Part shown: positions 300 to 36,532 of the stretch, piece by piece
Numbering within the stretch: the first letter of the stretch is position 1
Layout: each line of letters starts with the position of its first letter
Assembly: GCA_028753945.1 (NCBI GenBank)
Contig: JAPNXP010000012.1
Span: 1,550,001-1,614,000, forward strand
Source of the DNA: Hexactinellida sp. DTS-2022
Lineage: Eukaryota > Porifera > Hexactinellida
Length of the DNA: 64,000 bases
Reading direction: 5' to 3'
The notes under the pieces: generated by a model
Database searches by the model: none
Told to the model about the DNA's origin: nothing
The model's input: only the letters and a program-made list of their open reading frames with translations
Translations under genes and position numbers: made by a program

Positions 300-587
300 A
301 TGATTTCTATTGAGCTTTGGAGAGCAAGGATTGGAGGCTGGGGAGGAAAAGGTAGATTACCTAGAGGATGCGATGAGACCCAGAATTTCTACCCCATTAC
401 GAAACAGGCGGATCCGATACTAGCACTATCGTGTTGCCTGTTGTTGGTAGTGATCAGTATACTCCTAGTGATAGGTATACTCCTAGTGATAGGTGGAGTA
501 GAGCTAAATCCTGGACCTACCGGAAGAGATCCTAATGCCTCATCTTCTGAAGAGTTATCATCTGAAACTATAAGAGGTACTATATGA
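300..587 (+). CDS. Orphan exon encoding a hydrophobic 2A-like leader peptide
   Basis: A 95-aa frame starting MISIELWRARIG. Residues 40-66 are strongly hydrophobic and run directly into GGVELNPGP (about 65-73), matching the ribosome-skipping 2A core (V/I)ExNPGP; separation would fall between G72 and P73. The hydrophobic run contains a small tandem duplication (LLVIGI/LLVIGG). A good splice donor GAG|GTAC lies at 576/577, so the frame past residue about 92 is probably intron. A second exon with the same start and the same hydrophobic-2A layout lies on the minus strand at 20946-21186, where it splices to a large transposase-like frame. Here no partner exon is visible downstream. It may be a relic of a related element or the first exon of a gene whose rest is lost. 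2A activity is inferred from the motif only. Confidence 0.6.
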   Translation: MISIELWRARIGGWGGKGRLPRGCDETQNFYPITKQADPILALSCCLLLVVISILLVIGILLVIGGVELNPGPTGRDPNASSSEELSSETIRGTI

Positions 588-7253: not shown

Positions 7254-7371
7254 TCACCTCAGTTGAATTACTATGTTATATCCATGGTCCAATAACATAT
7301 TTGTTATTTAAATTACAATTAACTAAGTTTCAACATAATTTTCAAATCTTCTAATGAGACTTCCCTAGATA

Positions 7372-10300
7372 TGATAGGAGATATAGCACTAACATCCCTC
7401 TGCTGCTTCTCAAGTACAAACTGGTAGAAACAGCTAGTCTTAACAGTGCTATCAGTATTTGTATGAGAAAAACAAAGTCTACAGACGGACAGGCTATAAC
7501 TGTGTCTGATGTTCTCAATGACGATAATCTAGAGAGAATGGTTGAGGACGATGAGGCTTTTAAGTTCTTAAAGCAAGTCCGGTCTACCCCAGCATTCTGG
7601 CAGCAGAAACAGAGAGAACTGATGTCTATGATAAGACAGCTGGGATGTCCCACGTTCTTTCTAACTCTGTCTGCTGCTGAGACTAAATGGCTAGAGCTAC
7701 TAAGGATACTGAAACAGATCCTAGATAACGTTAAGCTGTCTGTTGAAGAGGTTCTGGAATTCCAGTGGAGTGAGAGAGCAGATCTGATAAGGAGAGATCC
7801 TGTCACTTGTGCTAGGTACTTTGATCACCGCTCCAAGGAGCTATTTAAGGTGCTTCGATCAGAGGTTAGTCCCCTTGGTAAATTGACTGATTACTATTTG
7901 AGAATAGAATTTCAGCAAAGAGGGTCCCCACATGTACATTCATTACTTTGGGTACAAGATGCCCCTAAGTATGACCACAATCCGTTACCTGAAGTAATAT
8001 AATTTATCGATCGTACTATCTCATGTAAATTGCCAGATGAGACTAGTATAATAACTGAGGATGATATTAAGTTACAGTGACATAAGCACACGAATACGTG
8101 TTATAAGAAAAAGTCGTTTCGGCGCTGTAGGTTTGGTATTCCGTACCCTCCAATGGTATCAACTAAAATTCTAGAACCATTGGAGTTTGAAGCCAGTACG
8201 GCTACCAAAGAGGAGATAGCTGCTAATGCAGCTCTTAAGGAGACTGCTAAGAAAATATATACGCTAATTGACACCTATGATAAGAGCGATACTGACTTAG
8301 GTAGTATAACGATACAGGATTTCTTTAACGAACTCTATGTAACCGAAGAGCAATACATAACTGCATTGAGATCTTGTTAAATAGACCAACTATATTTCTG
8401 AAACGAAATTTGAATGAGATACGAATCAATGCTCATAATAAGACTATATTGCATCTCTGGAAAGCTAATATGGATCTCCAATACATATTGGATCCATACG
8501 CTTGTGCTGTTTATGTTATTTCGTATATCGGAAAGTCCCAACGTGGGATGTCTAAGTTGTTGAGAGATGAATGTGTAAAACTAATCCCGATTTTGATGAG
8601 GAAAATATGGAAGACGAGGCAGCTTCCCTGGTCGATAATCCGACACTATTTCCTCTCAAAGATACAGGTTTTATGAGACTCCGTCGTAAAGCTAAAATTA
8701 TCCGATTTAGAAGGTATAGTATTATACAGGACGAAATTAACTTTTATAGAGAACAGTTAATGCTGTTTGTACCATGGAGAACTGACACTAGTGATACTGA
8801 CAATATCGACTTTAAGTCTATGTATGCTATCAATCTTAGTCTGATTACTCAGAATAGGGAAATATTTGAAAGCACAGACTAATCCTCAATTGACGCGGCT
8901 ATTAATATCCTCGAGGACTTGGACCCTGATGAGCTTAACTTTGATGGGATTGCTATTGAGGAAATAATGCACAATGAGGGTGCAGTGGTTATTGAGGATA
9001 CTGACTTCCAGGTAGACAATCCCTGGACTGTAGATCCCAATAGTGACCCCGGAACTAAATCTGTAGGAGGATTCTTCACTATTCCTAACATGAATACTGA
9101 GGAGGTATTCCTTGAGATGTGTCGCAGCTTGAACAAGGTTCAGCGTACTGTATTCCTCCACACTCTGCACTGCTTTAAGACTATGAAGCAGCTGCCTATG
9201 TATCTCTATATAGGAGGAGGTGCTGGTGTTGGTAAGACACGGTGGTACGAGTCTTATACGAAGGTTTGGTAAGATTTATGAATTCACTACCTGGTACTAA
9301 ACCTGATTCTATTACTGCTAACAGCTCCTACAGGTAAAGCTGCTTTTAATATCCGTGGTATGACACTCCATTCTCCATTTGCTTTACCTGTAACGGAGTT
9401 TAACGGCGAAATGCCAAACTTATCTTCTGATGTTTGTAACACGTTAAGAAGTAAACTAAGCTGTTTAAAAGTTATCATAATAGATGAAATATCCATGGTT
9501 GGTAGTAAAATTTTGGCTCAGGTTAATAAGCGATTGAAAGCCATTATGGATAATTCACTGGACTTTGGTGGTGTCTCCATCATCTGTGTTGGAGATTTCC
9601 ATCAGTTACGTCCGGTTAAGGATAGCTATGTCTTTCAAATTTCAATCTCCAGTGCCAATAATTACGACGGGCTGGTTGGTCCGTACCTTTGGGAAAAATT
9701 CTCATATATAGAACGGACGGAAATAATGAGACAAAAAGATGATCAGAAGTTTGCATTAGCATTGAACAATTTTGCTAACTGTTGTTTAACTGAGGATGAC
9801 ATAAATCTATTTACTAGTAGAATTATACAGAAAATTCTTATGAGAATCTTCCCATAAAATCTATCCATTTGTTTAGTACAAACGCCAGTGTTAATGCTCA
9901 TAACGAATTTGTTCTCAATGCATTAACCACTAAATGTTTTATATTTATATCTATTGATTCTTTAGTAGGAGACAATGTGGAGGTATTACTGACAAGCTGA
10001 GTAACCTTATTAAATACCTAAAGGTATGTGACACCCAGGGACTACCCTATGAGCTCTTCTTGAAGCTGGGCGCTAGATACCTCATGACAGTGAATATCGA
10101 TATACAAGATGGTCTGGTTAATGGAGCTACTGGCCTCTTGAAGAAAATAGTGTATGGTACCAAGAGCGATTCTCTGGAACGAGTTCCCTGTATCCTCTGG
10201 ATGGAGTTTGACGATCCAACTGTAGGAATGGACAAACGAGCCCAGTCTCTACATCGTTATCTTAGAGATAGCGCAATTCAAAGGAAGTGGACTCCTATTG

Positions 10301-12332: not shown

Positions 12333-15068
12333 TATGCCCAATACTTGTTCAGTATTCGGATGCAAGTCCATTTACATAGGTCATCCCAGTGCTACTGTGT
12401 TTAAATTGCCGAGCGCCCGCGCGATTTGAAAGAGAAATAGATTAGAGCTCTCCATAGGGATATGGCTACTGAACTCCCAGAAGATAAGATATTCGTTTGT
12501 ATTCATCACTTCAGAGAGGAAGACATTATACGGGTTGACCGGAATATCCAAGCGGATGGTACATGTACTGAAACACCACGAATTAGGCCAACTTATCGTA
12601 TTAACGCAGTACCAGTTATTTTCCAAGGCTGCCCGTCTTATTTTATTTCAACTGCTCAGAAAACAAAGCGTCTTAGTCGAGAATCTAAGGAAGAAGAAAA
12701 CTTCGCTAAAGGTCTTCACGATAGTATCGTTCAAAACCAACAAGATCGTTTACAATTCAATTTGGATAACTTTGATGATCTTAAAATGAAGTTGCCTCGT
12801 TTACATCTTAGCCAAGATTGGGTGGCGTGGTACTCTTCCAGTAGCACCTTGCAGATCCTACAGCTGGAATTATTTAACAGCACTGTTAAAATTCAATCTA
12901 CACTAACAATTCAGTCAGACTTAACAGTATCAGCCGTTACTCGCCAATACCAAATACCCTTGCAGTTCAATCGAATAACCGACTTACGACAAATTGACTC
13001 CCTAATTGATAATATCTTAAATTTTGAGCCAAATCCAGAGTTATTTGAGTCAGCCTTGTTCTTGTAAGTATCAAGGAAGCAGCCACTAAATTGCAATTGT
13101 CAATATCAATGTTAGAAGCTACTGAACAGACTGACGAGGAATACTCAAGTACACATTTATTACCTCTCCTCCAGTTTATTACTTGTCAACTTGAAAACTC
13201 ACTAGTTTCCGCAAAACAACGAATAAATAACGTAGTTACTCAGGTTAGTATTTTCTGATTTCATTAATTTAATTATTCACCTTTTAATTTTAATCTAGAC
13301 GGTTGCATTGAAGGCACATCTGATCTCACCAGCGTGCTATCGTTTTTTCCAATCCTTGGATTGTCTCATTCTTCCAACTACAAGATCACTTCGAGCTTTA
13401 TCTTCGTGCATAGGATTGGACAGTGAATATTTACACTTACTAAATAATTTAACTTTACATTTTTGTAAAATAGATCGCCATGTTGTTCTAAATATGGACG
13501 AAATCCACGTTTCATCAGAAATCTCCTATCAAGGTAATAGGTGATATTACATATAGTAAATGTATATATTTATGCTTACATTTCTTATTCGATTGTTTAG
13601 GTGGAAATATTATTGGTGAGATCGATCCTACTACTCCAACTAAGAAAGTTTTTGCCTTGATGATTTCTTCTTTATCGAAAAAATGGTCACAAGTTGTGAG
13701 GTTATTTCCCTCAAATTTTTCTACTGCTGAGGAACTCTTCCCAATCGTAAATCTTCTAATTAATGATTTTGAAAAGTGTGGACTATTTGTTGAAGTACTC
13801 ATAAAAGACAATTATCCAATGAATGTACGTTTATTTAAATTATATTCTTTTGACCAGAAGACGTTACTTCCTGCTGTTCAACATCCAACTTGCCCAGAAA
13901 GAAAACTCTTTATTTTGTTTGATTTCGTACACATAATCAAGTCTATAAGGAACAACTGGTTAAACTTGAAGGACTATGATCTAATGTTTAAATATCCAGA
14001 CATGCTTCTGTATCCTTGGCCCTCTATTTCTGCAACAGAACTGAATGAGGCAAAATTTAATGATATTCGATTATTGTACAAGAGCGAACAACATTCTACA
14101 GTAAAGCAAGCTCACAAGCTAAGTTCTAAGGTATGTTGGCCCACAAGTTTAGAACGTCAGAACGTGAATCTAGCACTTCGCGTTTTCAACGAGTCCAATT
14201 TTGCAGCTCTTAAAATTCAAAACGATCTACGACAACATTCTAAAAACGAAACTGCAAATTTTGTGGACACAATTAGTCAAATTTGGAAGATTTTCAACAT
14301 AAATACCCCTCACAAACATTCGCGATTGAATGACGAGTATTCTAGACCCCTTGTGGACGAAGATTGGCGCTTTTAGTTTCTTCATTTAATCTCTAATTGG
14401 CTTGAGCGGTGGAAGTCAACAATTGGAAAGGATGGAAAACTTAGCGCGCAAACTTTCATAAGTTTTCAGCATTTTTGTATAACACTTCCGTTAATCGTTT
14501 CACATCTCACTCAGAATTGTGGGTACGAATATGTTCTTAGCGCCAGACTCTATATCGAATGATGAGTGGCGCGCAATATCACATCACCTATTCTCAGATA
14601 TTGGAGAGTCAACGTCGCCTGAACCTTTCAAATATTCTTAAGTTATTCTCATTACAACAAAACAAAAGCGATCTTACCCTTAAACGATTTATACAGACCT
14701 TTTCTCCAACTTCTGATGAGTTCATTGATGTGCCTTGCGATCCTTATATTGAAGCTATTCATGATCTAACCTCTGTCAATCTGGACATTCATGTTCTCCA
14801 ATCTATTGTGTTTATTGGTGGTTCCGCTGATACTCGTATCTTAAAACAACTAGTTGTCATTATTGCAATCAACTACTTACTGAAAACAAAGATATCGAGA
14901 TTACAGACGCAAAAAAGTATGATCTTGTAAGATATATTGATCGTTGTTCTTTGAAGTGGCCTTTTGATATCGTAATTGAGTCAATAGTGATACTGTGGAA
15001 AATATTCATTAAAATTGACGAAGACAAAGTTTTAAAGAAACTGTTCTACTCCTCGCCTTCAAGAAAGG
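12333..15068 (+). pseudogene. P-element-type transposase with N-terminal THAP zinc finger (broken)
   Basis: Start at 12333 (MPNTCSVFGCKSIYIGHPSA...). The THAP C2CH finger is split by an early frameshift/stop near 12427. Its second half (VCIHHF, then NAVPVIF) lies in the frame of 12462-13067. After another frameshift (~13063) come a leucine-rich stretch, a 55-nt intron (13244-13298), a catalytic-type segment VVLNMDEIHV (about 13477-13506), a 67-nt intron (13534-13600), and the 13657-14376 frame with NYPMNVRLFKLYS and FDFVHIIKSIRNNW. Further breaks at 14376 and ~14560 precede SGAQYHITYSQILESQRRL, the usual P-transposase GxYxxS-E region. The frame ends at the nested MULE insertion and its last 70 codons resume at 22219. 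Family known: THAP9/P transposases (RNase-H-fold DDE). Non-functional. Confidence 0.85.
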
Positions 15069-15078
15069 TGTTAATTCA

Positions 15079-15787
15079 TGACTGTGAAGTTGGCTTAGTA
15101 TTCGACCAGGCTCACTTCAGTCAGATATTTGACTCACTTCTAGTTATTAGATTTAAATAAATTTAGTGTCGTTCGAAAGAGGAGATACGGAGGTTTCCCG
15201 TGATATTATTTATTTTTAAATTTTTTAACTTTCAGTTGGTTATTTTTATCATACAAAGCCGCACTGGTATCTCATCAAAAATCACATTCTCAAAATTTGT
15301 TTATAATTCTGAAAATTTGTTATCATACTTTGGAGAGTTGGAGGTTTATGTGATTTAATTTTTATTTAAAATTTCCCAAAAATTTTGGAGTTATAAACAT
15401 TCAAACTTGAAGTTGGGAAAAAGAGTGGAAGTAGAATTTTGAAAAGTCCATTGAGTATGCTTAGTCCCAAGTGTCAATTCCTATCCAATATCAACCTGAA
15501 TCTAATTTATTTTGATATCATTCGTTAGAGGAGACACGGAGGTTTACCTCAATGCCATTAGATTCTCGAATATTCCCTTTATAACAGATAAATAACTCCT
15601 TTAAAAATGGCGTAAATCTCTGTTTTTATTGTTTTATCTTTTCAAACTTTGAGCTCAATTTTCCGAGATAAAATTGAACCAGAATCGATTCAAACTTTAC
15701 AGGTACTTTCTCTGATATATTATTATTCTATCCCCAGAAAAAAAAACAGGGGTCGCTAGTCATTTCTTTCAGAATTTTTTAATTTCT
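15079..15787 (+). repeat. Left 709-bp terminal inverted repeat of the 2A/OTU MULE
   Basis: Matches the reverse complement of 21500-22208 through its whole length. Landmarks: GAGGAGATACGGAGGTTTCC, GGAGACACGGAGGTTTACC and CAGGGGTCGCTAGTCATTTC near the inner end. The two near-repeats GGAGA(T/C)ACGGAGGTTT at 15180 and 15531 could be transposase-binding sites (inference). Confidence 0.85.
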
Positions 15788-16202
15788 CCAAAATGTTTCA
15801 ATTTCGATCTCATTATTTTAGCTAAGCCTATCTTTATTTCATCATAACATCAATATTAGTGATATCATTTATACTACCTACGTAATGTAACACAATTCAT
15901 TCGCTTCTCTTAGTTCCCATTGTAGTATTGAGTTTCAACTAATAATAGCAAATTGTAATTGCAACTATATAACTAAGACATCAGATGATTGGAATGCAAA
16001 CAGAATCAGTAAACAATGAATTATTCTGGTTGTAATAATGGTAGTGATAATTATATAATTAGTATGTATTAACAAATGCAAGAAGAATGGCATCCACAAT
16101 GTGTGCTTGTATAAATTCCCACTGCTTTTTGGATTGATCTTACTTATCCAATTCCAAGAAGAGAGAATGGCATCCAGGTATCTCATTAAAATAATGTGTG
16201 TT
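15788..16202. other. Non-coding interior of the MULE
   Basis: AT-rich, with a partly repeated string GAATGGCATCCA at about 16086 and 16165. No gene or RNA recognised. Confidence 0.5.
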
Positions 16203-16398
16203 TACCGTGGAGTCTCCGAATAACGGACACGTTGGGGACATGGCCTTTGTTTGTTCTTTGGACTCTGGAGATGTCCACTTCTCGGAGACGGCTGAAGTAT
16301 TAATTACATGCATGGTAAATTCATTCCGTTCCAGGAGGTTTGTCCGTTTTAAATGTGTTGTCCGCTCCTCGGAGTGTCCGTTTTGGGAGACTACTGTA
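16203..16398. mobile_element. pogo-type MITE inside the MULE
   Basis: TA-flanked, about 194 bp, with ends GGAGTCTCCGAATAACGGAC and GTCCGTTTTGGGAGACTACT. Internal GTCC(G/A)CTTCTCGGAG-like repeats echo the ends. Confidence 0.7.
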
Positions 16399-17130
16399 TA
16401 TCAATTCCGACTGCTTTGGGATAGATCAATTCCTTTTTGTATTTGCCTTCTTATAAAGAACTATAGGATAAATCTTTACACAAATATTTATAAATCATCC
16501 ACATGTACATTTAAGAATATAACTTACCACTTTATAACTGTTGTCATGATAAGCTTTGGGACCTTTCTGTATCAAGCTGCCACCATTGACAGCTCAAGTG
16601 GTCCAAGTGGTGTCGCCACCACTCTAGGGTTTCGGCCCTCCATAGGCCTCATCAGGAGGACGGTACAGTCCTCTACCCTCGGTACGCTCACTGCGACCGC
16701 AGTGTCCGACCTCGTCCAGATGGTACTTCTTCCATCGTCGCGACACACCTAGGCCTGCTCTCTCTCGCTGTCTAACAGCTCCAGCAGCGCCTAGTCCTGG
16801 GAGTGACTGACCATAAGCTCTCGCGGATCACACACCGCTTTGTCACACTGTCCAACATAAAAGTTGTTGAAAATCTTTACTATTTAAGTAGAGAAGGTGG
16901 CTGTAACCTGTAGACATGAGAATCGCAATTTTTGCGCTATTAAGAGCCCGAAATAATTTTATTCTTCTTTGCTTCTATTGATGTAATTAATAGGATCACT
17001 TCTAAACCTGGATAACATTCCGCATAAGACAATTAATCATTAACTAATAAAGGGAATCCTTTGGTTTTCTAATTACGTATATAGTTTTAATTAATTAATA
17101 TCTACGACTACGAGGTAATCAGTGAATTCA
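16399..17130. other. Non-coding interior with a GC-rich island (16550-16850)
   Basis: 16550-16850 is far richer in G+C than its surroundings (for example CGGCCCTCCATAGGCCTCAT). It has several short self-complementary blocks and no convincing protein frame. It could be the tail of an unrelated insertion or a structured transcript. 16860-17130 is plain AT-rich sequence just downstream (on the minus strand) of the OTU frame. Confidence 0.4.
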
Positions 17131-17910
17131 TTAATTTCCCGTAGATATTAAATCCACCCGTAATATTGGTTCATAATGTACTCCATTATGATTAATATAG
17201 ATAGAGCCTGCATTATTTCCTGGAGGAGACTCCAAAGTATCAATTAGTTTAGCTCCTCTACCTGAGAATACCATCCACTTGTTACCCATGTCTGAACTAA
17301 ATACCCAAATATCCGTATGCAATAATAAGGCTGTTGCAAATAACTCCACATCAGTAACCCACGTAGAATTCCTCTTCATATTAGATTTCACTACATAGTC
17401 CGCCACGTTACGATAGTTAATTACACTCCTAGGAAATTTATTGGCAATAAACTTATTGCATGCATCCTTCAGCTTACCAACCATATTCTCTACAACTTTC
17501 AACCGTACTAAATTAAAACCATCAATATTTCCTGTCAACCAGTACGACAATGATGCGAATAAACAATTTCCATCTCCAGGAATTCGCAAACACTTCGAAG
17601 GAACATATTCTTTTAAATTAGAATTGCCTGGGATATTATCTCTTATGGAATTTGTAGAATCCGACAACTGTAAATGTAAATCTTCACACAACTTCTTCTG
17701 TCCCCGATATGTAAGTGGTTGGAATGCCGGTAACTTATATTCCATGGTAGCCATTTCTACTAAATCTAAATCACCAATTATTTCAACTACACTTGCACGC
17801 ACTATATCATTAATAACTGTAGTAACATCTACTGGATTTTCTTCACAAATAGTAGCTTCTTCTCTGTCTGTTGAACGTTTACTTATACTTTCTACATTAA
17901 AACTTTTATT
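17131..17910 (-). CDS. OTU-family cysteine protease domain of the MULE
   Basis: The frame is open from 17910 to the stop at 17131, about 260 aa. OTU catalytic features are complete: IPGDGNCLFASLSYWLTG with the Asp-Gly-Asn-Cys nucleophile loop (about 17597-17544), a central NSTWVTDVELFATALLLHTDIWVF segment, and the C-terminal His in NHNGVHYEPI (about 17190-17160). OTU proteins are deubiquitinases or related isopeptidases and are known passengers of transposons. It has no ATG near its start and lies one frame behind (-1) the 1003-aa frame upstream, overlapping it by 19 nt. I see no canonical slippery heptamer, but a 47-nt GT-AG intron (17914-17868) would fuse the two in frame. It is therefore most likely the C-terminal domain of the same polyprotein. 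Confidence 0.85.
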   Translation of the reverse strand, partial: NKSFNVESISKRSTDREEATICEENPVDVTTVINDIVRASVVEIIGDLDLVEMATMEYKLPAFQPLTYRGQKKLCEDLHLQLSDSTNSIRDNIPGNSNLKEYVPSKCLRIPGDGNCLFASLSYWLTGNIDGFNLVRLKVVENMVGKLKDACNKFIANKFPRSVINYRNVADYVVKSNMKRNSTWVTDVELFATALLLHTDIWVFSSDMGNKWMVFSGRGAKLIDTLESPPGNNAGSIYINHNGVHYEPILRVDLISTGN

Positions 17911-20887
17911 TTACTACTTAAACTTTTAGACTTGAACTTTTTAAATATCGTACTAACTTTATCAACAGTTGGTTTAGTATAACTAAATTTACTCTTCTTA
18001 CTTCTAGACCACTCCTCTTTGCACTCCTCCTCATTCTCCACGCGTAATCTCTTCTTAACTTTAAACACTTTATGAGCCAGTGGAGTGAAAGCAAATTTAA
18101 ACGCCGCGATCCTATCGTCTATGTTATTATAAACTGTTCTGATGAAATCAGCAGCTCGTATCCCGGTCTCTGAATTAAATATGCTGTGTTTAACAATTCT
18201 GAACCAATTCTCAACAATCGCATTACTGTCTGTTGCATTCTCTGACGAATTAACTGTACATAAAATTATCCCACTCCACAACGGTAACAATGGCATATAA
18301 TACGTGAGAAGAAATTCCACTATCTGGGGGTTATAAGATACACTAGGATCAAGTTGCGAATTATTGTCGAATTCGCTTATTGAGACTAAGGTATTACGAT
18401 AAATCATTTCAAAATGTCTGCCAAAAGGGGATTTATCTCTGTAAGTTACAGCATTACTTTTAACTTCAGTCTCATCCTCGAATTCATTGGGAACATCATA
18501 ACTAACATTAATCTCCGCCCTAATACATTCTTCTAGTTTGTTTAATTTAGTGCAATAAACACTAGTTTGCTTCTTACTACACAAAATATAACAAATTAAC
18601 CCGAAAAGTTGATTAATTTCATCCATTTGTTTACAATTAACCATACGACCAAATACATGCAATATTAATCTTTTTAAGTCCTTTTCTAATTTGAATTTCT
18701 TATTTAAATTATAACTAATTCTGTGCATGATATGAGCCGAGCAGAGATGGAGGACTGTTATAACACCTAAGTTCTCACTATTAGCTATAAATTCCCAACA
18801 ATATTGGAGATAATGAAAAATAGTAAATTTGTTAAACGCTAAACATGTACTGTGCATCATAGCCCAACTAAAATCTATCTCAACCTTCTTAATTTTTAAC
18901 TCCATTGTGTTAAATAATTTTACACTCAAACACCATTTATTTAGGAAGTGTGAGATCTCAGCGGTGCTATGATCGCTACTTATCATTTCAGCTAATGGGA
19001 TGGGACTAGTGGAAAACTCCGGGTGTTGTATTGTAAGGGCATAGTAATATATTTTCTTAGAACAGGAAGGGGGTTTAGAAATAAGAGAACCAGTCGCATC
19101 TAAATTCAAGACAATATCTTTACTGTTCATTAGTTTTAGAATTTCCAGCTGCTTATAAGAATACATATGAATAATGAAAGGATCCTGTACGAAATACTGG
19201 ACATAGCCTGGTAGGGGGGATTCAGGAAGTAGATAACGGAAATACTGCTGGGTTGCTGTTATATCTTCCATATATAAATTAGAAAATCGCTCCTTAGATT
19301 TCAATTCAGCTTTAACTTTCCGCAAACAATCTTGTGATTTAAGAGAAGTAAAATTACCATAACAGAGACCAGGATTACTTGAATTATTAAACTGTTTATT
19401 ATAAATTTTACTAACCGAATTATTAACTAATAATTCTCCCATTTTACTACGCTCACTGCAAGAAAGATGGCGACTATGTGCACTCTGTCCATCTGTGTGT
19501 TGAAGTGACAAATATCCTTCTGAGTAAATCTTGACAAGTATGTCATTATCTACCAAATTTAGTGCATCATCAATATAGAAGATATAAGATCGACAATTTT
19601 CAAACTTACAATACGCTCTAGCTCTGAAGAAAGGACAATTACCCTTGCGACTATCAGGTTTCTTCAACCAATAATTTACAAACTTCAAAACACACATTGG
19701 GGCTAAATCTTTAAATTTTTCAGCAAAAACATTAGTCCAATTACTAACCAATGAAGTTTTACCAGTAGAATTGGTAATACAAATATTATCCCACTCACTC
19801 AGTTCGAGATAAAACTCCCCACAGTCACTACTACTCGTACTACTTAGAACTTCTATCTCAGAACTTTCTATCACCATTTGTGTTTCAAAGTTGTCAGTTT
19901 TAATATCAGGCACATCGTGAGAACGAGGAAGTGGTTCACTAAATTCACTTTCAACTCTAACACTAAAATCAGTACACTTACTTTCTAAACACTTAACACC
20001 ATTAGCATTGTACTCATCTGTCAACACCTTTACCCAAGTTATAAAATGACTCAAGTCATCTCCACTTAAAAACACATATTTCTTACCAAACATTTGATAC
20101 AAGAAACTACATTCAAGCTGTACTTCAGACAACCACAAAAACAATAAAGGAGTACATTCCACAAAGCTTTTACAATAAGTATTTACAATCGTGGTAATAA
20201 AATCAAAACACTCCTCAAAATAGCACATTTCCTCGAATTGTAAAAAACCAGAAACATTTTGTGGATTAATTAATCCATAAAACATAGCACCGTCTACCCA
20301 TAACTGGCATTCAGTTGTATTGAACATGTAATACGCGTCGTGACCTTCACTATTCAGAGAACTAAGATTTGTATTCTGAGAATCTCTCTTCAACCGGTCA
20401 TACACAGCTTGGTCAGATGCAGAAGATGCCCACACAATAAGAAGTTTATCGTCAACTACATTCAATTCAAGTTTGTTTAAATCTAAGTTATCGAATGACG
20501 AAAATAAATCGAAACAAGCAGCTACACTTAAACTTAGTTCCTTAAGAATTGTGGAAGTTACCAATGATGCTCTGCTCTGAATAGTTAAGTTACTAAGACT
20601 ATAACTCACGTGAAATTGCTCCTCCGAACTAGGGGGACTTACTGAAGGCTTAACTTCGCTCAAAGCATCCCTCACCAGGGTTCTTACGTCATAAGAATTA
20701 TTTTTCCACTTCAAGTACAAGCTATGTCTCTTATCAGGCTTGTTACGCAAGTAGACTTTCTTACAAATGGAACCCCAAATGGAACTGGGCGAACTGTAGC
20801 TTGCAGACAGGGACTGGATCAATTGTTCGAATGATAGTGTTGTGGAGAGGAGTGCGTCGACAAAAGATTTGATCTCAGCTGGTAGTT
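17892..20887 (-). CDS. Putative DDE (Mutator-like) transposase, main exon of the 2A-leader gene
   Basis: About 1000 codons without a break; the exon begins at 20887 (ELPAEIKSFVDALL...) after the acceptor TTTTTTAG. The N-terminal ~400 residues are unrecognised and Ser-rich at 330-380. A Cys-containing patch (GNCPFFRARAYCKFENCRSY) and a RHLSCSERSKMGELL segment precede the core. The core has LDATGSL (Asp ~602), EIDFSWAMMHS (Asp ~677), CSAHIMH (C721-x2-H724) and NAIVENWF (Glu ~898), the D-D-CxxH-E order of Mutator-type transposases. The C-terminus is Lys/Arg-rich (KKRLRV, RSKKSKF), possibly a nuclear signal. The gene is enclosed by 709-bp TIRs. The motif match is by eye; an overall match to a named superfamily was not tested. 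Residue numbers count from the frame's first Met at 20903, which lies in the intron. Confidence 0.75.
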
Positions 20888-20945
20888 CTAAAAAAAATAA
20901 CAATAAAGGTTATTCTTATCCATAACATATATAAGTCAAAATTAC
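20888..20945 (-). other. 58-nt GT-AG intron joining the 2A leader to the transposase
   Basis: On the minus strand the donor is ACGAG|GTAATTT and the acceptor TTTTTTAG|AACTACC. Joining is in frame (phase 1: G + AA gives Glu). The length is similar to the two introns inferred in the P transposase gene (55 and 67 nt). Confidence 0.8.
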
Positions 20946-21186
20946 CTCGTTCGTGATGAGTATCTTGAGTATGGGTGATAGGCCCAGGATTGATCTCGAT
21001 GCCACCAATGACGAGTAGAATGGCTACTATACATGCAATACAAGCCGAGATGATCGAAACAGATGAATCAGTTTGGTCTGTTGATTGATGACGATGATGG
21101 GTACTATTGCATCTACGGCTGCAATGCAATCCGATGTGAGCACGCCACAATTCAATAGAAATCATTGAGAGAGAATAATGAATCAA
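20946..21186 (-). CDS. First exon: hydrophobic 2A-like leader
   Basis: The frame opens at Met 21186, but the Met at 21165 begins MISIELWRAHIG, the same start as the exon at 300, and is the preferred start. After a short His/Ser/Thr-rich stretch comes a hydrophobic run (SIISACIACIVAILLVIG), then GIEINPGP, a 2A-like core whose skipping point would be Gly-Pro. The remaining residues (ITHTQDTHHE) are followed by the donor. Inference: ribosome skipping would separate a small hydrophobic leader from the transposase, leaving Pro at the new N-terminus. When skipping fails, the hydrophobic stretch could act as a signal or anchor. Hydrophobic 2A-like leaders with signal function have been described in sea urchin proteins. 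Confidence 0.75.
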
Positions 21187-21499
21187 TAAATAATTGTAGA
21201 AAAGAACTAAAGTTCAAGGAATAATTGTAGAAGAATCAAGGAAAAGTTTGAAAGAGTGATGAAAAAAAGCAATGATTGCAAAGTTCGAAATCTCCTCCTA
21301 GCCTGAGTCGAGGCTTAAATATTCTAAGAATAGCCTAAATGCGTAACAGCTAAATTTGTAAGTGGAACTAACGAATGTGTGACGCAAATTAGACTTGTGG
21401 GAAATACCATTTAGGGCTATAGGTGCATACTTGTATACTGAGCTATTATAAACTAAAGTATGAATATTGAAAATTTAAACAATTAGCTATTGCTGTCCA
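21187..21499. promoter_or_regulatory. Presumed promoter/5'UTR side of the 2A/OTU gene
   Basis: About 310 bp between the leader exon and the inner edge of the right TIR. AT-rich, with no recognised element beyond a weak repeat (GGAATAATTGTAGAA). Assigned only by position. Confidence 0.3.
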
Positions 21500-22208
21500 A
21501 GAAATTAAAAAATTCTGAAAGAAATGACTAGCGACCCCTGTTTTTTTTTCTGGGGATAGAATAATAATATATCAGAGAAAGTACCTGTAAAGTTTGAATC
21601 GATTCTGGTTCAATTTTATCTCGGAAAATTGAGCTCAAAGTTTGAAAAGATAAAACAATAAAAACAGAGATTTACGCCATTTTTAAAGGAGTTATTTATC
21701 TGTTATAAAGGGAATATTCGAGAATCTAATGGCATTGAGGTAAACCTCCGTGTCTCCTCTAACGAATGATATCAAAATAAATTAGATTCAGGTTGATATT
21801 GGATAGGAATTGACACTTGGGACTAAGCATACTCAATGGACTTTTCAAAATTCTACTTCCACTCTTTTTCCCAACTTCAAGTTTGAATGTTTATAACTCC
21901 AAAATTTTTGGGAAATTTTAAATAAAAATTAAATCACATAAACCTCCAACTCTCCAAAGTATGATAACAAATTTTCAGAATTATAAACAAATTTTGAGAA
22001 TGTGATTTTTGATGAGATACCAGTGCGGCTTTGTATGATAAAAATAACCAACTGAAAGTTAAAAAATTTAAAAATAAATAATATCACGGGAAACCTCCGT
22101 ATCTCCTCTTTCGAACGACACTAAATTTATTTAAATCTAATAACTAGAAGTGAGTCAAATATCTGACTGAAGTGAGCCTGGTCGAATACTAAGCCAACTT
22201 CACAGTCA
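21500..22208 (-). repeat. Right 709-bp terminal inverted repeat of the 2A/OTU MULE
   Basis: Reverse complement of 15079-15787, ending CTTCACAGTCA next to the 10-bp duplication. Visible differences from the left arm are very few, so the insertion is recent. Confidence 0.85.
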
Positions 22209-22218
22209 TGTTAATTCA

Positions 22219-22426: not shown

Positions 22427-22684
22427 AATATTCCTTATGTACTGTATCTGTATGCGTAATACTAATTCCTTATGTTGTATGTAAAATCGTTCTATTTTCA
22501 CTGAATGAACTTCAATGAACTGTTATTTAATGATATTCAATTTGCTTTTACAGTATAATCCAGTTTAATATATAATCTAATGTTCATAACAAACAGTAAT
22601 TAGTGAAAATATCGAATGCACTTCTAGTTCATCCATGGTCCAATATTTTATTGTCGATTCCAGTCCTTTTATTACGTAGTTCAC
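22427..22684. repeat. Right end of the P element
   Basis: The last ~125 bp are the inverted copy of 11843-11957 (CATCCATGGTCCAATATTTT, GTAATTAGTGAAAATATCGA). The ~130 bp before it shows no feature. Confidence 0.8.
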
Positions 22685-22692
22685 GCCTCGAT

Positions 22693-23260
22693 GTATTTGG
22701 AGAATAAATCCACAATAATCAGTACGTACCGGTATCCGTCCTTTGTCCACGGTAGGGTCGCGACGTCAAAAGCAATCGTAGCTCGGGGAAGCTCGCAACT
22801 CAACTTGATGGGATTAAGTGGTTGTTTTGGGGAGTACGATCTCTTATTCTTTAAACAAACCATGCACCTCTTGCACACACTCTCGGCGTCGGCATTCATG
22901 CCACGCCAATAAAATCTCATTTTGAGCTCCTGAATTGTGCGTTGGATGCCCCCATGGTATGAGCGATGAACCATTTCGGAAATCTCCTCGCGTAAGGAAG
23001 CTGGTATTATTATCCTTTTTCGTCTATACAAGATTCCATTCCTAATCTTAAGGCCGCAAAACTTCTTCAGTTGGCCGGAGGCAACTATACCGTGGGTCTG
23101 TAGTTGCATAATTGCGTCTGCCGTCATCTGGTCGTGCCTCTGTGCCTCCAATATCTTCTTTGCTAAATTCGGGAACTCATTACCGTGGCCATCTAAAATA
23201 GGCCCGCACAATACGTTATACTGAACAATGGTCAGGAGAGTCAAGTAGTTCAATGAACAA
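22693..23260 (-). pseudogene. Gypsy 2 integrase, N-terminal half
   Basis: Minus-strand frame with the integrase HHCC zinc finger (VHRSYHGGIQ...VCKRCMVCLKNK) and the start of the catalytic core (AFDVATLPWTKDGYRYVLIIVDLFSKYIEA), where the core Asp is the D of FDVA. It stops at the P-element insertion (22685-22692 duplication) and continues at 11834. Upstream of about 23260 the element is missing, so gag, protease and RT are absent. Confidence 0.85.
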
Positions 23261-23389
23261 TTAACTCAACTTCTTGTTAAACTTTAGCAATTTACCCCAA
23301 ATTACTGTAATTAGTATTTTCAGCTCATAATCCTTGTTATGTGTTTGTTGTTTGTTCGTCTAAACTTTAGAATGAAATCTATCTGTATA

Positions 23390-28429: not shown

Positions 28430-29329
28430 GATTTGTATTCACTAAAAACTTGACCTGTTTATCTGGTTTTTATGAATCATACTTTAGTGATCATAAGCCA
28501 ATGTTGATTTCTCTTGGAAATGTTGTTAGTGACTGTAGTAATGTGGATAATCAACCAATTATATCACATGCTAGCTAACTAGTCAACATGATATTATTGA
28601 TATTGACCAAATATCAATTGATAATACAACCAAGGATATTCATGATGTAATTGTTAGTCATGTATCATCCCTACTCCTGTGCTGTCTCCCATTATTACAT
28701 ATTGCAATGCTAATGCATTCACATTTCCAATGAGGCAGTCATTAGCACAATGTATTAATCTACAGAGAATACCTTTAAGACCGACTAACTATACTGGGTC
28801 TAGAGTCTCAGCTACTGGTTATTATGATTTTATGCGTACAAATGTAAGAGTTCGGTTTAATTTCAGGATAGTTCCTGTAACAAGTGATGGGAATTGTTTC
28901 TTTAGAACATTGTCTCACATAATCTTCGGTGATGAAAGTGAGCATCATAATATCCGTGGTTCTTTAATAGACACATTTGAACAGAGTCCTTATGTTGCTG
29001 TTCTCTGTGGCATCCAAGGCTATAATGCAGTTACTATTCAGCAACACTTGAGTAATATGAAGCGTAATTACTCATGGGGGACTGTGAATGAACTTATTAT
29101 GTTTGGAATTTTAACTGGTATTAATGTAAGTTACATTAATGCTGCTGACACCGACGCTTCTAAGTGGGCAATAACTGATGTGTATAATGCGAATACTCTC
29201 GGTAAACCAAATGATCCAATATATGGAGGGAGACACCTTGTTGTGTTGTTTCATAGTATTAATTTCTCTGGGTCTTGTTGTAATCATTATGACGCAATGT
29301 ATCCTATTATAAGTATCAATCTCATTTAG
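28430..29329 (+). pseudogene. Helentron fragment: endonuclease tail and OTU protease
   Basis: 28430-28577 reads ...GFYESYFSDHKPMLISLGN..., with the terminal Ser-Asp-His of exonuclease/endonuclease/phosphatase enzymes, then a stop. The 28679-29329 frame (217 aa) is an OTU domain: VPVTSDGNCFFRTLSHIIFG (catalytic Cys), YSWGTVNELIMFGILTGINV, and CCNHYDAMYPI with the probable catalytic His. An endonuclease followed by OTU is expected for Helentron polyproteins. The order and strand match the Helentron truncated at 10698, so this may be its displaced 3' end (inference). The OTU frame itself is intact. A small hairpin (ACACTTA...TAAGTGT, 29343-29366) just after it could be the rolling-circle 3' terminator. 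Confidence 0.6.
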
Positions 29330-30103: not shown

Positions 30104-31716
30104 ATGGACTACACTACAACTCATTATAAACAAAATCGCGGCTCAATATATCAAACATCTGAAGGTCACAAATATCTTGCGTCCAAAAGGAGAGGTGACC
30201 AAATTTATTTGAAATGCGTTCTTTTCCGTAACGGGTGCAAGTCTACTGCTAAACTCATCCAAGAAAGTAATCTGATTAGATTACAAGCAGATCACAACCA
30301 TGGGATTGATAAGTACGACGGTGATTTGTATATCGTGAAGGCTAATTGTAAAGAAGCTGCTAAATCTTCTGGCGAAAATCTGCGGAAGATATTCAATGAT
30401 GTCACACGGAGAGATGTCAGAGGAAGAGCAATTACATTTGCTCAGTGTGAATCACTGATATATCGCGCTAGGAGACAACTTCAGCCAAAGATACCCCAAA
30501 CCTCATTCCAATTAGAAACTTCATTATCAGGTACCCCTTATGGATTATTTTTGAAGGTATCGTAACAGTCGGTGATAATCAAGCTTTCATTTTTTTTTCT
30601 GATGAAATTATGGTTTTACTGGCTGAAATTTTAGAAATATCCTTTGATGGTACATTTTATACTGTGCCCAAACAATTTTACCAGCTGTGGACAATATTTA
30701 TTATTGTTGATCAGCACGTCCTCCCAGCTATACACTGTCTTTTAACTGGTAAATCTCAAGAACTCTATGAGGCCGTATTATTCAAAATACAATCTATAAT
30801 TCCTCAATTTAATCCACAAATATCTATCTCAGACTGGGAAATTGCACCACGAAACGCATTCAAAACAGTATACAATGGTATCAAGCTACAAGGTTGTTAG
30901 TTTCATTACACCCAGCGTATTTGGAAAATGGTTCAAAAGTGTAATTTGGTAAATGCATATGCCCATAATGCTGCATTTCACACTTTTTTGCGTCACATTA
31001 TGGCCCTCCCTTTCCTGCCACCAGAAACAATACAGCCTGTTTTCAATGAAATTACAGTCCCAGGTCCTAACCTAACTGATGATCAATTTGTTAATCGTGC
31101 CAAATTGAAGAGGTATATACAAAGAAGGTGGATAAACCAAGTATCTAGTGAAGAGTTATCTATCTGGAACCACGGAATTTCTACAAATAACGGGGCAGAG
31201 AGCTACCATGGCAGATTGAAATCTATAATTAAATGCAACCAACCAAGGGTTTGGAACTTTTTGGAAACACTTAACGAAACTATACTAGATACGGACAACG
31301 AACTAGCAAGATTGAAAAATGGATTACCAATTACAAGAGCAAAGAAAAAAAACTGTTTGCTAAATGAGGAGTATCGTCGTAAATGTAAGGATAAACTCAT
31401 CGAAGGTGCTTTTTCGCCATTAGAATATATTAAGGATATCAGTAAAACGGTGGGGTCTTTAACGGAGATAAGTATATTTGATGTAAGTTCAGATGAAGAA
31501 GATAATTCCAACCAGACTGATGCTTGTATTATCGAAAATTTGAATGCAAATTTGTGTGTGGTCTGTTTGAGGGCACGAGAAACAACATGGATTTTCATGC
31601 CCTGCAAACACGCAAACTGTTGTGAGGATTGCAGTACCCAAATTGAAGAACTTGGAGAAGCATGTCCTACTTGTCGTTCTGTTATTCAGAATAGTTTTAA
31701 AATATTTATTAACTGA
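30104..31716 (+). pseudogene. MULE 1 transposase: FLYWCH finger, MULE core, C-terminal RING finger
   Basis: Starts MDYTTTHYKQ. A FLYWCH-type zinc finger occupies about residues 12-67 (HKYLASKRRGDQIYLKCVLF...HNHG). A 1-nt frameshift near 30550 precedes the catalytic core: SFDGTFYTVP (first Asp, ~30649), ISDWEIAPRNA (second Asp, ~30829), QGC-stop-FHYTQRIW where a TAG (30898-30900) sits inside the C-x-x-H motif, and TNNGAESYHGRL (Glu, ~31185). The last ~50 residues form a C3HC4 RING: CVVC, MPCKHANCCEDC, CPTCR (31552-31690), closest in pattern to IAP/MDM2-type RINGs. One frameshift and one nonsense codon make it a young pseudogene. A transposase-RING fusion could link transposition to ubiquitin ligation (inference). 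Confidence 0.85.
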
Positions 31717-32172: not shown

Positions 32173-35156
32173 TTCCCACTCAACTTTCTTGCACCTCTCT
32201 TGGGGACTTGATCCCATGAGACTACCTCTCCATAGTACTTCCTAGGTCTTCTATTTCTTGCGGGATACCTTCTCTCCATCGAACTGGCCTCATCCTCCGT
32301 AACTTTCAGGTTTATGTCCTGGGTAACCACTACAGCATCACTATCCAAATCATCCCTAATTTCTTGTTCATTTTGGATCTCTGCAAATTGTATACCCATC
32401 TCCTCGTTGGGGGCTATCTCCTCCCCTCGTTCATTGTCTACCTGTCCCAGAGCCGGTGCATCCACTGCACTTGAAGAATCTACACTTTGCACCTATCCAG
32501 ATGGATCCATTTTGTGCGATGCTGAATTCGAGCGCCCCCAGTTCTGTTTCGGAGCTGTCTCTGAATTTTGATCTTCACGTCAGGTCCTTTCCTGTCTAAG
32601 ACTTCGTACGGTCCCTCGTATCTCTGGTCGAAAGAGTCATGTCTGGCCCAATTTCGTAGCATCACCTTGTCTCCCTTTCCAACTACTGAACTCGACCTTC
32701 CAGCATTCAACGACTCCCTAGCCTTTGTTAAAGTTCGTTCAATGTTTTCTTTTTGCCAAGGCGTGCAATTCTGTCTGTGTCGTCCTTAACGTATCAAGGT
32801 ATTCACCATGTGAATTCTGAGTACCATTTCCAAGGTTTCTACACCACAAGTCTATAGGTGACCGAGGTTGTCTGCCGTATGTCAATTTATACGGTGAAAC
32901 ACTACTGGAAGCATTTGCCATGCAATTACAGTGAAAGCTCGCCTCTTGAAGTAACGCAGGCCAAGAACCTTTGGCTAATTGTCGATCCAACATCAGACAA
33001 AGTAAGACTTGCTTGATGAACCCGACGTTCCTTTCCGCCATACCATCGCATTGCGGATGGTAAGGTGTGGTGTGGCGTTTATCAATATTTAGAGGTGTAC
33101 AAAACTTCCGTTACTCGGATCCATCGAGCTGTGAACCTTGGTCAGTAACCACGATTTCCGGAACGCCATGGCCCTTATAAATCCAACCTTGTTCAAAGGC
33201 AGCGATTACACTACCAGCTGTTTGGTCGTGAAGTGGCATTAACTCAACATGGCGTGTGAAGAGGTCGACCATCACTAGAAAATATCTATATTCGCCATCG
33301 CCCCATGGGAGCGTACCAATATCAACCCATATAGCAGCTCCAGGACAATCCTTTCCGAGTGACATTAGTTCTATTGGTTCCCTCGATCGACGCGATGGCT
33401 TAACTCGCTGACATATAATGCATTCCTGACAGAACAGTTACGCATCTCTTGCCATTTTTGACCAAAAGTAGTTCCGCCTCAGGGCGTCCAGGGTACCTGC
33501 AGCGCCAAAATGTCCTTGTGCGTGCACTTCCCTCAGTATCTCCTTCCTTTGATTCATAGGTACTACTAACCTATGGTCGAAATACAATATCTGTCCGTCA
33601 AGACGTAAATGATTCGTAACCCTTTTTAGTTGACCTGTCATAATAGTCCCTTCGTTCTGCAACTGTTGAACAGCATTCTGTATCACCGGATCTGCCCCTT
33701 GCTTCGTGACGATCCGTCTCCGAATTCTGTTTGATGTGCCAAGTATGTACACATGACCTTCAAATTCTTCCTCATGTTCCACTCCGTCATTACAGTAGAG
33801 GTGAGGTACCCGGCTGAGATAGTCTGCCGTTTTGTTCTGGTTTCCCGGACGATATTCTATCCGATAAGGTAGTTCCTCCAACTCCAAAATCCATCGCGCA
33901 TACGTGTGACGTGGATCCTTCTGACGTCTCAGCCATTGAAGGGGACAATTATCCGAGAGGAACACTACTTCGTTAGCTGCTCTCAAATATACCGACCACT
34001 TCCTCGCCGCAGATATCAGGGCCCACGCCTCCAACTGCCCTGCACTGTAATTCCTCTGAGTTGGGCTCAAGGAAGAAGAATGATAACATAAATTTTCCAG
34101 TTGAAGAGTCCTTTTGCGAAAGTACAGCGCCAACTCCTGTAGCGCTTGCATCTGCCTCGACGTAAAAGGTACTCTTCCAATCGGGGAAAGCCAAAATTAC
34201 AGGCTCCTCCAACAACTTGTCCCGTAGCCTTATGAAAGAACTTTCACATTCAGGAGTCCAATCCCACCGTGTGCCCTTCTCTGTCAATACGTATAATGGA
34301 TGCGCAATCTCAGCCATCCTTGATATATAACAGCGATAGTAATTGACGGTTCCTAAGAACCGTTGGAGTTCTCTAACAGATTCTGGTATTGGGAATGACT
34401 TCACTTTGTCGATATACGAAATGACCGGTCTCCTGCCGGAGCAAGAGATGTGATGGCCCAGAAACTCACATTCCAGGTGTGTTAGGCGGCACTTGTCCTT
34501 CCGTAGTTGAATGCCCCCGTCATGGAGGCGCCTAAAAACGCTTCGTAGGTATTCGATATGATCGTTCAACGTCTCGGAAAAAATTAGGACGTCGTCCACG
34601 TAACTCTCCGCAAATTTGATACCCTGTAACGTCCGATCCATTACTCTCTGAAAAGTAGCGCCTGAGTTTACCATGCCAAACGGCATGACCAACATCTCGT
34701 ATAAACCTCTCAGTGTATGGAATGCGGTCTTTTCTATGTCGGCCTTATGCATAGGCACACACCAGTAAGCGCTAGCAACGTCAAGACACGAGAAATATCG
34801 CTTCCCCTCAAGCTTGTCCAAAATCGATTGTGGGTTCGGGCCTTCGGGGGACCATATGCGTCCTTTATCGTTATGGAATTTAACGGACGGTAATCAACTG
34901 CAAAGCGCATTCGACCGTCCTTCTTACGCACCAGGACGACATCGCTCCCCCATGGCGAACTAGAGGGTCTACATATACCATTCATGCACATTTCGTCAAC
35001 CTGTCTGGTGATCTCCTCTTCCCACGCAGGAGGGATCCGTCGAGGTCTTGACCTCATGGGAGTATTGACTTTTAGTTGAACGCGGTGTACTTGATCCATG
35101 CTAACTCTCGAAGGTCGCTTGGGGTCTTCTGCAAAGAGCGTAGGAAATTCGTCCAA
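32173..35156 (-). pseudogene. Gypsy 1 pol: RT, RNase H, integrase (frameshifted)
   Basis: RT starts about 35156 (MDEFPTLFAEDPKRPSR...) with WGSDVVLVRKKDGRMRFAVD, a frameshift near 34800, then FAESYVDDVLIF containing the RT YVDD box (~34600). RNase H starts FYVEADASATGVGAVL (~34165), a second frameshift follows, then SDNCPLQWLRR. The integrase zinc finger begins EVHAQGHFGAAG (~33515). A stop (~33437) precedes the core (WVDIGTLPWG, VVTDQGSQLDGSE, 33340-33115). The C-terminal part spans 33041-32173 in three frames with a final ERRYPARNRRPRKYYGEVV tail. At least five lesions; not functional. Confidence 0.85.
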
Positions 35157-36510
35157 TACTGCCTTTCATCTCATTGTTCGAAAGTCGCGGGTTTATTAGT
35201 TCCGTCTGGTTTGGCCTTAAGGAAGTTTCTTTCGATAACTCTGCTCTGGAGAGTGGTGTAGCTCCACTTATTAAAGCTTGTACCGGTTCCCAACTGTTAC
35301 CTAGCTTGATTCGTCCACCATCAAAGTCAAAGGCTATCTCCTTGAAATTTCTCATGAAGTCTCGTCCGAGAATGATCGTAGGGCTGTCTGAGTCAAGTAC
35401 CTGCAAGCGTTGTGTTACAGGCAAATGTTGACCAATACCAATCTGTGCATCGATGTATCCCCTCACTTCGATGGGGGCATCGCAGAGCCCATAAACCTTG
35501 CTCGGAACTTTTACCACCTGTTGATCTAAACCGAGGTCATGTATCGTAGTACTGTCAATTACACTTGGTCTGGCGCCAGTATCGAGCATTGCCAGCACCG
35601 TACCTTGGCCCAATCGTATTCGAATGCTGACGGCATCCTCTCCTGGCCCTACTACAAGAACGGGACCACTGTCTCCGTATCGCCGCCTCCATCCCTCTTG
35701 TCGCTTCCCCCACGTACCTCGTGCTTTAGAACACTCCCATGGTTTATGTCCTTGTCGGCCGCATATGCCGCAAGGTCGTTTGGGGCAGTACTTGTATCCG
35801 TGTCCGAACTCGTTACATACGTAACAGCCGTTACCCCGTCTTTGTTGGGAAACGTAAGTATTCCTTTGACGCGCGGGTACTTTCTCTACAATGTGTACCT
35901 TTTCTGGGCTCGAGCCTTCCAACTCATCTTGGTCCTCCAATGCTGGGGTATGTGATTGTATCCTGGCCACTTTATCTTGTCCTCGATCGCGGTAACCTTG
36001 TGTCAGCGACAGCCCTTTCGCTAGAAAAAGATCTCTGATCTTGACTGCAAATAGTGCTCCGTCTCCTTCGTGAAAATCGTCTTTCGCGTTGATCCAGTCT
36101 TTGGCCTGCTGCCTGATCTCCATGGGAAGTTGACTGACCATGAATGTGCAAATTTGCTTAGTGTTTAAACCAGCTCTAAATCCTTCCTCCAAATATCTAG
36201 CAATAAAATCATAGGCTTGTTCTCCGATGGGCCAAACTAATTGACGAAATCTTCCTGTAGCTTCAAATATATCAACGGGGGGGTCCAATCGTTCTTTTAA
36301 TAGTTTGAATGCAGCTTCCAATGTATCTTTCTGAATTGCTTGCAGGACAACTTGTTCCTCGAGCTTTCCCCGGTTCACGAACGCGGGAAGGAGTCGAACC
36401 GCCGCTCTTTCTTCAATAGAAATAACACTGGCTCGAAATTTCGGTTCCCAATCCGCAATCTTCTGTCCATCCGATAACACGGGAATAGATACTGTCAAGG
36501 GAGTTGCCAT
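35101..36510 (-). pseudogene. Gypsy 1 gag-protease frame
   Basis: A 469-codon frame from MATPLTVSIP. It contains a Gag-like helical region (about 20-190), two CCHC zinc knuckles (CYVCNEFGHGYKYC and CGICGRQGHKPWEC, ~235-270), and an aspartic protease with AMLDTGARPSVID (~315) and IILGRDFM (~385). It ends 55 nt into the RT frame, which is read one nucleotide out of phase. Because protease and RT are usually in one frame in this family, this is probably a decay frameshift rather than programmed, but a programmed shift is not excluded. The gag-protease frame itself is intact. Confidence 0.85.
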
Positions 36511-36532
36511 TCGAGATTACGAATTAGATTTA

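Follow-up and report, generated by a model that had tools for sequence, protein, structure and literature searches.

A 7.1-kb DNA transposon of the glass sponge Hexactinellida sp. DTS-2022 was examined in a 64,000-nucleotide stretch of contig JAPNXP010000012.1 (assembly GCA_028753945.1, positions 1,550,001 to 1,614,000, forward strand). This whole stretch is called the window, and positions below are counted from its first letter. The transposon occupies 15078..22209 and its gene reads on the minus strand. It probably represents a Mutator-like cut-and-paste family in which a short leader ending in a 2A signal releases a transposase fused to an OTU cysteine protease, the leader being portable between enzyme types. 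We place our confidence in this reading well above even but short of high because one related leader (L042) deviates from the 2A core, the leader of a diverged family (L043) matches weakly, and the joints between leaders and Helitrons rest on position.

The transposon, its limits and its copies

The element was delimited by its inverted arms, by a target site duplication (TSD) test with a fixed boundary, and by its presence in many copies. By arm comparison and the TSD test, the two terminal inverted repeats (TIRs) are 710 bp each and have no strand of their own. The left TIR, which is the 3' end in gene sense, lies at 15078..15787, and the right TIR, the 5' end, at 21500..22209. The arms of the window copy are 100% complementary over 711 nt, and comparing them shows their first 709 bases to be the same, in agreement with the nearly identical 709-bp TIRs described in an earlier account made from the letters alone (the sequence-only reading). 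A TSD, GTTAATTC, flanks the element at 15070..15077 and, by the TSD test, at 22210..22217.

The genome searches covered the assembly to which the window belongs (112.4 Mb, 18 contigs) and identified many further places of the element (99 matching rows, with several rows per copy). Ten copies with both ends were subjected to the TSD test. The base outside the left end given by the sequence-only reading was A, and the base outside its right end was T, in 10/10 copies. When this terminal A/T was counted as element, exact TSDs were found in 9/10 copies, of 9 bp in six and 8 bp in three; L013 had no TSD. Since A and T are constant outside the earlier ends and the TSDs are exact, the element is best drawn as 15078-22209, where the window copy has an 8-bp TSD. 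The 10-bp direct repeat on which the earlier limits had been set does exist, and is recovered when the terminal A/T is excluded from the element.

The ten insertion sites are all different, and the distinct TSDs indicate separate insertions. Copies L003-L007 diverge from each other by 0.1-0.3% (L003-L006 have both ends, L007 is missing one), and the window copy is 2.6% divergent from them. These data support the recent mobility that had been proposed, for a DNA transposon that has long TIRs and is present in many copies. The further copies with distinct TSDs that the sequence-only reading had asked for were obtained, at TSD lengths of 8-9 bp instead of 9-11 bp. A single copy or an assembly duplication is ruled out by the multicopy genome matches and the distinct TSDs.

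When the flanks were joined without the element, one long continuous open frame ran over the insertion site. TNP-like domains lie beside the site at 13492-14376, while the frame piece adjoining it matched no family. The domains suggest that the interrupted host frame belongs to a P-type transposon. The restoration of a host P-transposase frame upon removal of the element, as stated earlier, is borne out for the continuous frame, and its P identity is drawn from the TNP-like domains only.

Leader, transposase and protease in one predicted gene

All parts of the gene lie on the minus strand. The coding part of the leader exon, MISIELWRAHIG...IACIVAILLVIGGIEINPGP..., is at 20946..21165 and contains a StopGo/2A-type octapeptide, GIEINPGP (20980..21003), that fits the expanded 2A core by sequence. 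It is followed by a putative 58-nt phase-1 intron with GT...AG ends (20888..20945), by the transposase exon with D604, D679, C723xxH726 and E900 (17892..20887), and by an OTU cysteine-protease frame (17131..17910). No gene was recognised between the OTU frame and the left TIR (15788..17130), where a 185-residue frame has no family match. The stretch from about 16200 to 17000 is poorly matched in a diverged subfamily, with gaps at query positions of about 1126-1924 in several copies.

None of the three frames of the window copy (leader, 1005-residue transposase, OTU) is interrupted by a stop, as the sequence-only reading had noted. The transposase frame ends prematurely at 17892, and the OTU frame overlaps it by a few codons in another phase. 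An extra base is present near window position 17.91 kb in 10/13 aligned siblings; two siblings have another deletion and one provides no data. In five siblings transposase and OTU form one open frame of 1,251-1,260 residues that holds the OTU match, and each of these five has an unbroken leader frame upstream. From the siblings' single frame and the extra base it follows that the family's predicted protein joins leader, transposase and OTU in a single chain, and that the window copy has lost the last of these links, between transposase and OTU. The earlier description of the copy as intact has to be dropped, as the one-base shift relative to the siblings separates transposase from OTU. A separate OTU gene is likewise excluded by the single frame in siblings. 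That the window copy functions as it is, with the OTU part made by programmed frameshifting or reinitiation, could draw on the overlap of the two frames. We consider this highly improbable, given a shift that is absent in 10/13 siblings, the read-through of five siblings in one frame, and a joint where no standard slippery heptamer was seen by eye.

Comparison of copies points to removal of the intron. In the diverged subfamily, B, the intron carries 1- and 2-nt indels, and the leader frame is kept through a 6-nt deletion in 3/5 copies. A more distant OTU-transposase family, L043, whose transposase is 38% identical, has a 90-nt intron at the same place, in phase 1, with the same G/GT...AG/AA joints as the window element. 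We infer that the 58-nt intron is spliced. The order of spliced leader, DDE motifs and OTU proposed by the sequence-only reading holds, with splicing supported by comparison only.

The leader and its 2A core

Related leaders are about 60-70 residues long and follow the pattern MISIELWRARIG...hydrophobic...GGhExNPGP. The end of the window leader, GIEINPGP, matches the expanded StopGo core (D/G/C/N)(V/I)ExNPGP, as given in PMC12846837. Other leaders fit the same core, with GIEMNPGP in some subfamily-B copies, DVEVNPGP in L043 and GVEVNPGP in L040. Six leaders were found to begin with invariant M1, I2, S3, R8 and I11, and their ends have GG, E and PGP in common. The hydrophobic stretch has a best 19-residue mean of 2.5-3.5 in five of six leaders.

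Related leaders upstream of other enzymes

The sequence-only reading had treated the leader as a peculiarity of one element. This view did not survive a genome search with the window leader, which generated 115 rows at E<=10, as related leaders stand before two other enzyme types in the same genome. A hand-picked set of 83 near-full-length leaders was checked for enzyme matches up to 8 kb downstream, using 75/151 rows for Helitrons, 114/116 for PF20700 and 48/56 for the OTU transposase. For 55/83 leaders one of the three enzyme types followed on the same strand within 8 kb; since only part of the enzyme rows was used, further rows could only raise this number. The OTU transposase accounts for 20 leaders, Helitron Rep for 27, the PF20700 'Mutator' transposase for eight and none of these for 28. 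No leader was near two enzyme types. The controls gave 2/83 on the opposite strand and 3/498 at shifted places.

The leaders of the three types resemble each other. The window leader matched a Helitron-adjacent leader at E 2.2e-11 and a PF20700-adjacent leader at E 1.3e-5 at best, and the L040 leader matched a Helitron-adjacent leader at E 1.4e-11 and an OTU-transposase-adjacent one at E 3.3e-6 at best. The best match between a Helitron leader and a PF20700-adjacent leader had E 2.8e-10, and searches from Helitron-type and PF20700-type leaders recover the other types. Leaders of different types have 18-32 identical residues in alignments of 65-75. Where such a shared residue has several possible codons, the codons differ in more than half of the cases, a count without a codon-usage baseline. 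The window and L041 leaders, for example, share 30/67 residues and use the same codon at 8/29 identical multi-codon residues.

The leader and the PF20700 'Mutator' match of L040 lie in one 912-residue frame. L042 is a second PF20700 frame with the leader in the same frame. In L044 the leader opens a 437-residue frame upstream of a Helitron Rep, and L041 has a frame that looks similar by eye, with no compared Rep nearby. The window itself holds a related leader, MISIELWRARIG...ILLVIGGVELNPGP, at 300..545 on the plus strand, and a Helitron Rep frame 7 kb downstream at 7358..8002 on the same strand (PF14214, E 1.3e-29), the two being linked by position only. The distance from leader to Rep is 2.1-3.4 kb in 24/27 Helitron-type leaders, versus 7 kb in the window, and this Helitron copy may hold insertions. 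In general, position suggests that such leaders are joined to the Helitron Rep.

Three side observations concern these loci. The 912-residue frame of L040 has a PHD-finger match (E 1e-4) just below the Pfam cut-off. The frames after the leader in L041 and L044 contain a variable number of ERLKDPEKRAEHN-type repeats. Three tandem leaders about 9 kb apart (G000:C11, 9014689, 9023218 and 9032814, minus strand) have no compared enzyme within 8 kb.

If the leader were the ordinary N-terminus of the OTU transposase, its likeness to the Helitron and PF20700 leaders would be due to convergence on a hydrophobic 2A signal. According to PMC4981915, 2A needs a short core and its upstream context is loosely conserved; hydrophobic stretches resemble each other, and the link from the window leader to the PF20700 leaders reaches only 1.3e-5. 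The start shared by the six leaders, however, is not known as a 2A need, Helitron-type leaders match those of the other two types at E 1e-7 to 1e-11, and the codons are largely changed while residues are kept. We consider convergence quite improbable.

The OTU and PF20700 transposases may be distant kin; Helitron Rep is no DDE enzyme. In both transposases the leader could then go back to a shared Mutator-like ancestor, with exchange needed for the Helitron alone. Mutator traits are present in both, in PF20700 by its Pfam name and in the OTU transposase by TSD, TIR and motifs, and the leader is kept in the diverged L043. The profiles of the two enzymes showed no similarity, which is a weak test, and leaders stand near eight PF20700 places versus 114 compared, so that the leader is not general there. 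We regard this history as unlikely. The chances seem about even that a homologous, portable 2A leader was adopted by an OTU-DDE transposase, a PF20700 transposase and Helitrons, as a common device for release and dual targeting that would tune the dose of the nuclear enzyme.

Conserved residues of the transposase and the OTU domain

D604, D679, C723, H726 and E900 are invariant in 7/7 aligned members, window included, and are predicted to be catalytic. The six other members are 36-96% identical to the window and the seven represent about five types, L028 being a sibling of the window copy and L033 and L034 near copies of one type. The acidic residues named D602, D677 and E898 by the sequence-only reading are present, with numbers that were two too low.

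The OTU domain of the window was identified by Pfam at E 3.8e-8. In other members the domain is fused in frame to the transposase, in all six that reach it, including L028 and L033-L036. Pfam found OTU in 5/6 members of the first alignment and also in L043. The predicted catalytic Asp, Cys and His residues are present in 6/6 members reaching OTU, with DRNC for DGNC in L034. A PDB sequence search gave four matches, all in the OTU part, and searches of viral contigs and genome contigs confirmed no relatives.

The term Mutator-like here only describes the TSD, the TIRs and the order of the motifs; membership is not proven. MULE (Mutator-like element) transposases have a D-D-E triad with CxxH. The original Mutator-like call is consistent with the 8-9-bp TSDs, the 710-bp TIRs and the D-D-CxxH-E motifs, and finds no support in transposase profiles, as described next.

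Evidence weighing against the proposed reading

Several observations weigh against the reading of a Mutator-like family with a portable 2A leader. With regard to the transposase, the profile search that had been proposed for the ~1000-residue protein found no Pfam family for the window frame at E<=1, and NCBIfam gave one chance-like match only. In the other members the only matches are to OTU and, at weak and chance-like scores, to five families (best E 0.0062) of which none is named for a transposase. hhalign detected no similarity to the genome's own MULE, PF20700 and P loci, a weak result in that it failed to link MULE with PF20700 as well. Single-sequence structure models of the 1005-residue frame and of residues 585-935 were unusable, with predicted local distance difference test (pLDDT) scores of 33 and 36. 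One transposase pair that includes a decayed copy has a ratio of nonsynonymous to synonymous substitution rates (dN/dS) of 1.13.

The unmatched Mutator models would suit a transposase from another DDE superfamily (for example P, hAT or one without a name) in which CxxH and 8-9-bp TSDs also occur. Its motif order, on the other hand, is like that of MULE proteins, judged by eye, and TSDs of 8-11 bp with TIRs often of hundreds of bp mark Mutator-like elements in PMC6446971. We therefore take such an origin to be on the unlikely side.

With regard to the leader, that of L042 reads GGVEEHPGP, outside the 2A core. The hydrophobic stretch of L041 is weak (best 19-residue mean 1.03), so membrane targeting may not be general. 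Taken alone, the L043 leader reaches no better than E 1.5 against the window leader, and kinship of the two consequently rests on place, intron and motif. Leaders are broken in 2/5 subfamily-B copies, L009 and L011. Neither NPGP nor NSGP was found in the fetched stretches of L033, L034, L035 and L036, which represent three other OTU-transposase types. The leaderless L035 type (C18:236300-242600) has at least six 1,255-residue frames with nearly the same score, which looks like a recent burst. Together, the lack of these motifs in the L033-L036 stretches and the 1,255-residue frames of the L035 type indicate that the leader is dispensable. Finally, family copies among the 55 leaders are not independent events. 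The firm statement is therefore that three enzyme types bear such leaders, not that there were 55 acquisitions.

A leader that moved as DNA, by nested insertion or by Helitron exon capture, and that has no selected function is compatible with some of these data. Helitrons capture exons, some families have no leader, the dN/dS of the leader within families is only 0.56-0.69, and 28/83 leaders have none of the three compared enzymes nearby. On the other side, residues are kept between types despite different codons, and leader, 2A and intron phase are all present in the L043 family with its diverged transposase. Transfer without function appears rather unlikely to us.

Proposed mechanism and comparison with known systems

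The preferred reading, a leader-2A that releases a transposase-OTU protein, would operate as follows. A single gene with two coding exons would encode in exon 1 a leader of about 61 residues, with a hydrophobic stretch followed by GIEINPG^P, and in exon 2, after the 58-nt phase-1 intron, a D-D-CxxH-E transposase of about 1000 residues with the C-terminal OTU cysteine protease. The ribosome would skip at the 2A, freeing the leader as a separate membrane-type peptide. Once free, the transposase-OTU would enter the nucleus, where it would cleave at the long TIRs and produce insertions with 8-9-bp TSDs. By analogy with Ginger1, the OTU domain probably deubiquitinates the transposase or repair factors. 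The unskipped product might be held at the secretory pathway or membranes, as with sea urchin leaders, which would limit the dose.

Mutator-like elements are described as having TSDs of 8-11 bp and TIRs of up to hundreds of bp (PMC6446971). The present element resembles MULEs, including Phantom, in its 8-9-bp TSDs, 710-bp TIRs and D-D-E with CxxH. It differs from them in that no Pfam MULE or PF20700 match was found and in that OTU takes the place of Ulp1 at the C-terminus. No FLYWCH or SWIM match was found by Pfam in the members, and some Phantom members also have none (PMC6446971). By term counts OTU does not occur in PMC6446971, and the portion of its Table 1 that was consulted names no 2A.

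Ginger1 combines a Gypsy-integrase-like DDE transposase with a C-terminal OTU or Ulp1, and its OTU was proposed to act on ubiquitin in repair (PMC2836005). The C-terminal OTU on a DDE transposase is common to Ginger1 and the present element, whereas no Gypsy-type integrase family was matched by Pfam in the present transposase. The same source reports OTU in animal Helitrons and Ulp1 in Mutator elements (PMC2836005). The animal OTU Helitrons are alike in their OTU cargo, and Helitrons of the same genome have a related 2A-type leader upstream of Rep, but the enzyme is a rolling-circle Rep/helicase. Helitrons move by rolling-circle and have no TIRs.

2A is present in non-LTR (long terminal repeat) retrotransposons, and in sea urchin NLR proteins an N-terminal 2A signal provides dual targeting, the unskipped chains being held at membranes (PMC4981915). 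The N-terminal signal ending in 2A is the common feature. The sea urchin leaders have 26 residues, and other 2A sequences are in retrotransposons; here leaders of 60-70 residues precede three types of DNA-transposon enzyme. Searches of open-licence literature, by titles and term counts, brought up no paper that describes a 2A leader on a cut-and-paste DNA transposon or a Helitron.

Other features of the window

At 28658-29329 on the plus strand OTU is matched weakly, below the cut-off (E 0.03). This match is followed at 30901-31716 on the same strand by a frame that has a RING finger and, by eye, a MULE-like NNGAES stretch. Together the two are possibly another MULE with OTU and RING. The frames at 33438-36516 and 22681-23265, both on the minus strand, resemble by eye an LTR retrotransposon of the Gypsy type and part of an integrase. 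Another 2A core, GDVEHNPGP, is located at 60146 on the minus strand and is followed by Cys/His-rich sequence, a combination reminiscent of non-LTR retrotransposons.

Significance

If the reading is true, one related 2A leader before both cut-and-paste and rolling-circle enzymes would be a shared expression module of mobile elements. Whether ribosome skipping is a means of self-regulation in DNA transposons could then be tested directly. The leaders would also supply StopGo variants of natural, non-viral origin whose core begins with G or D.

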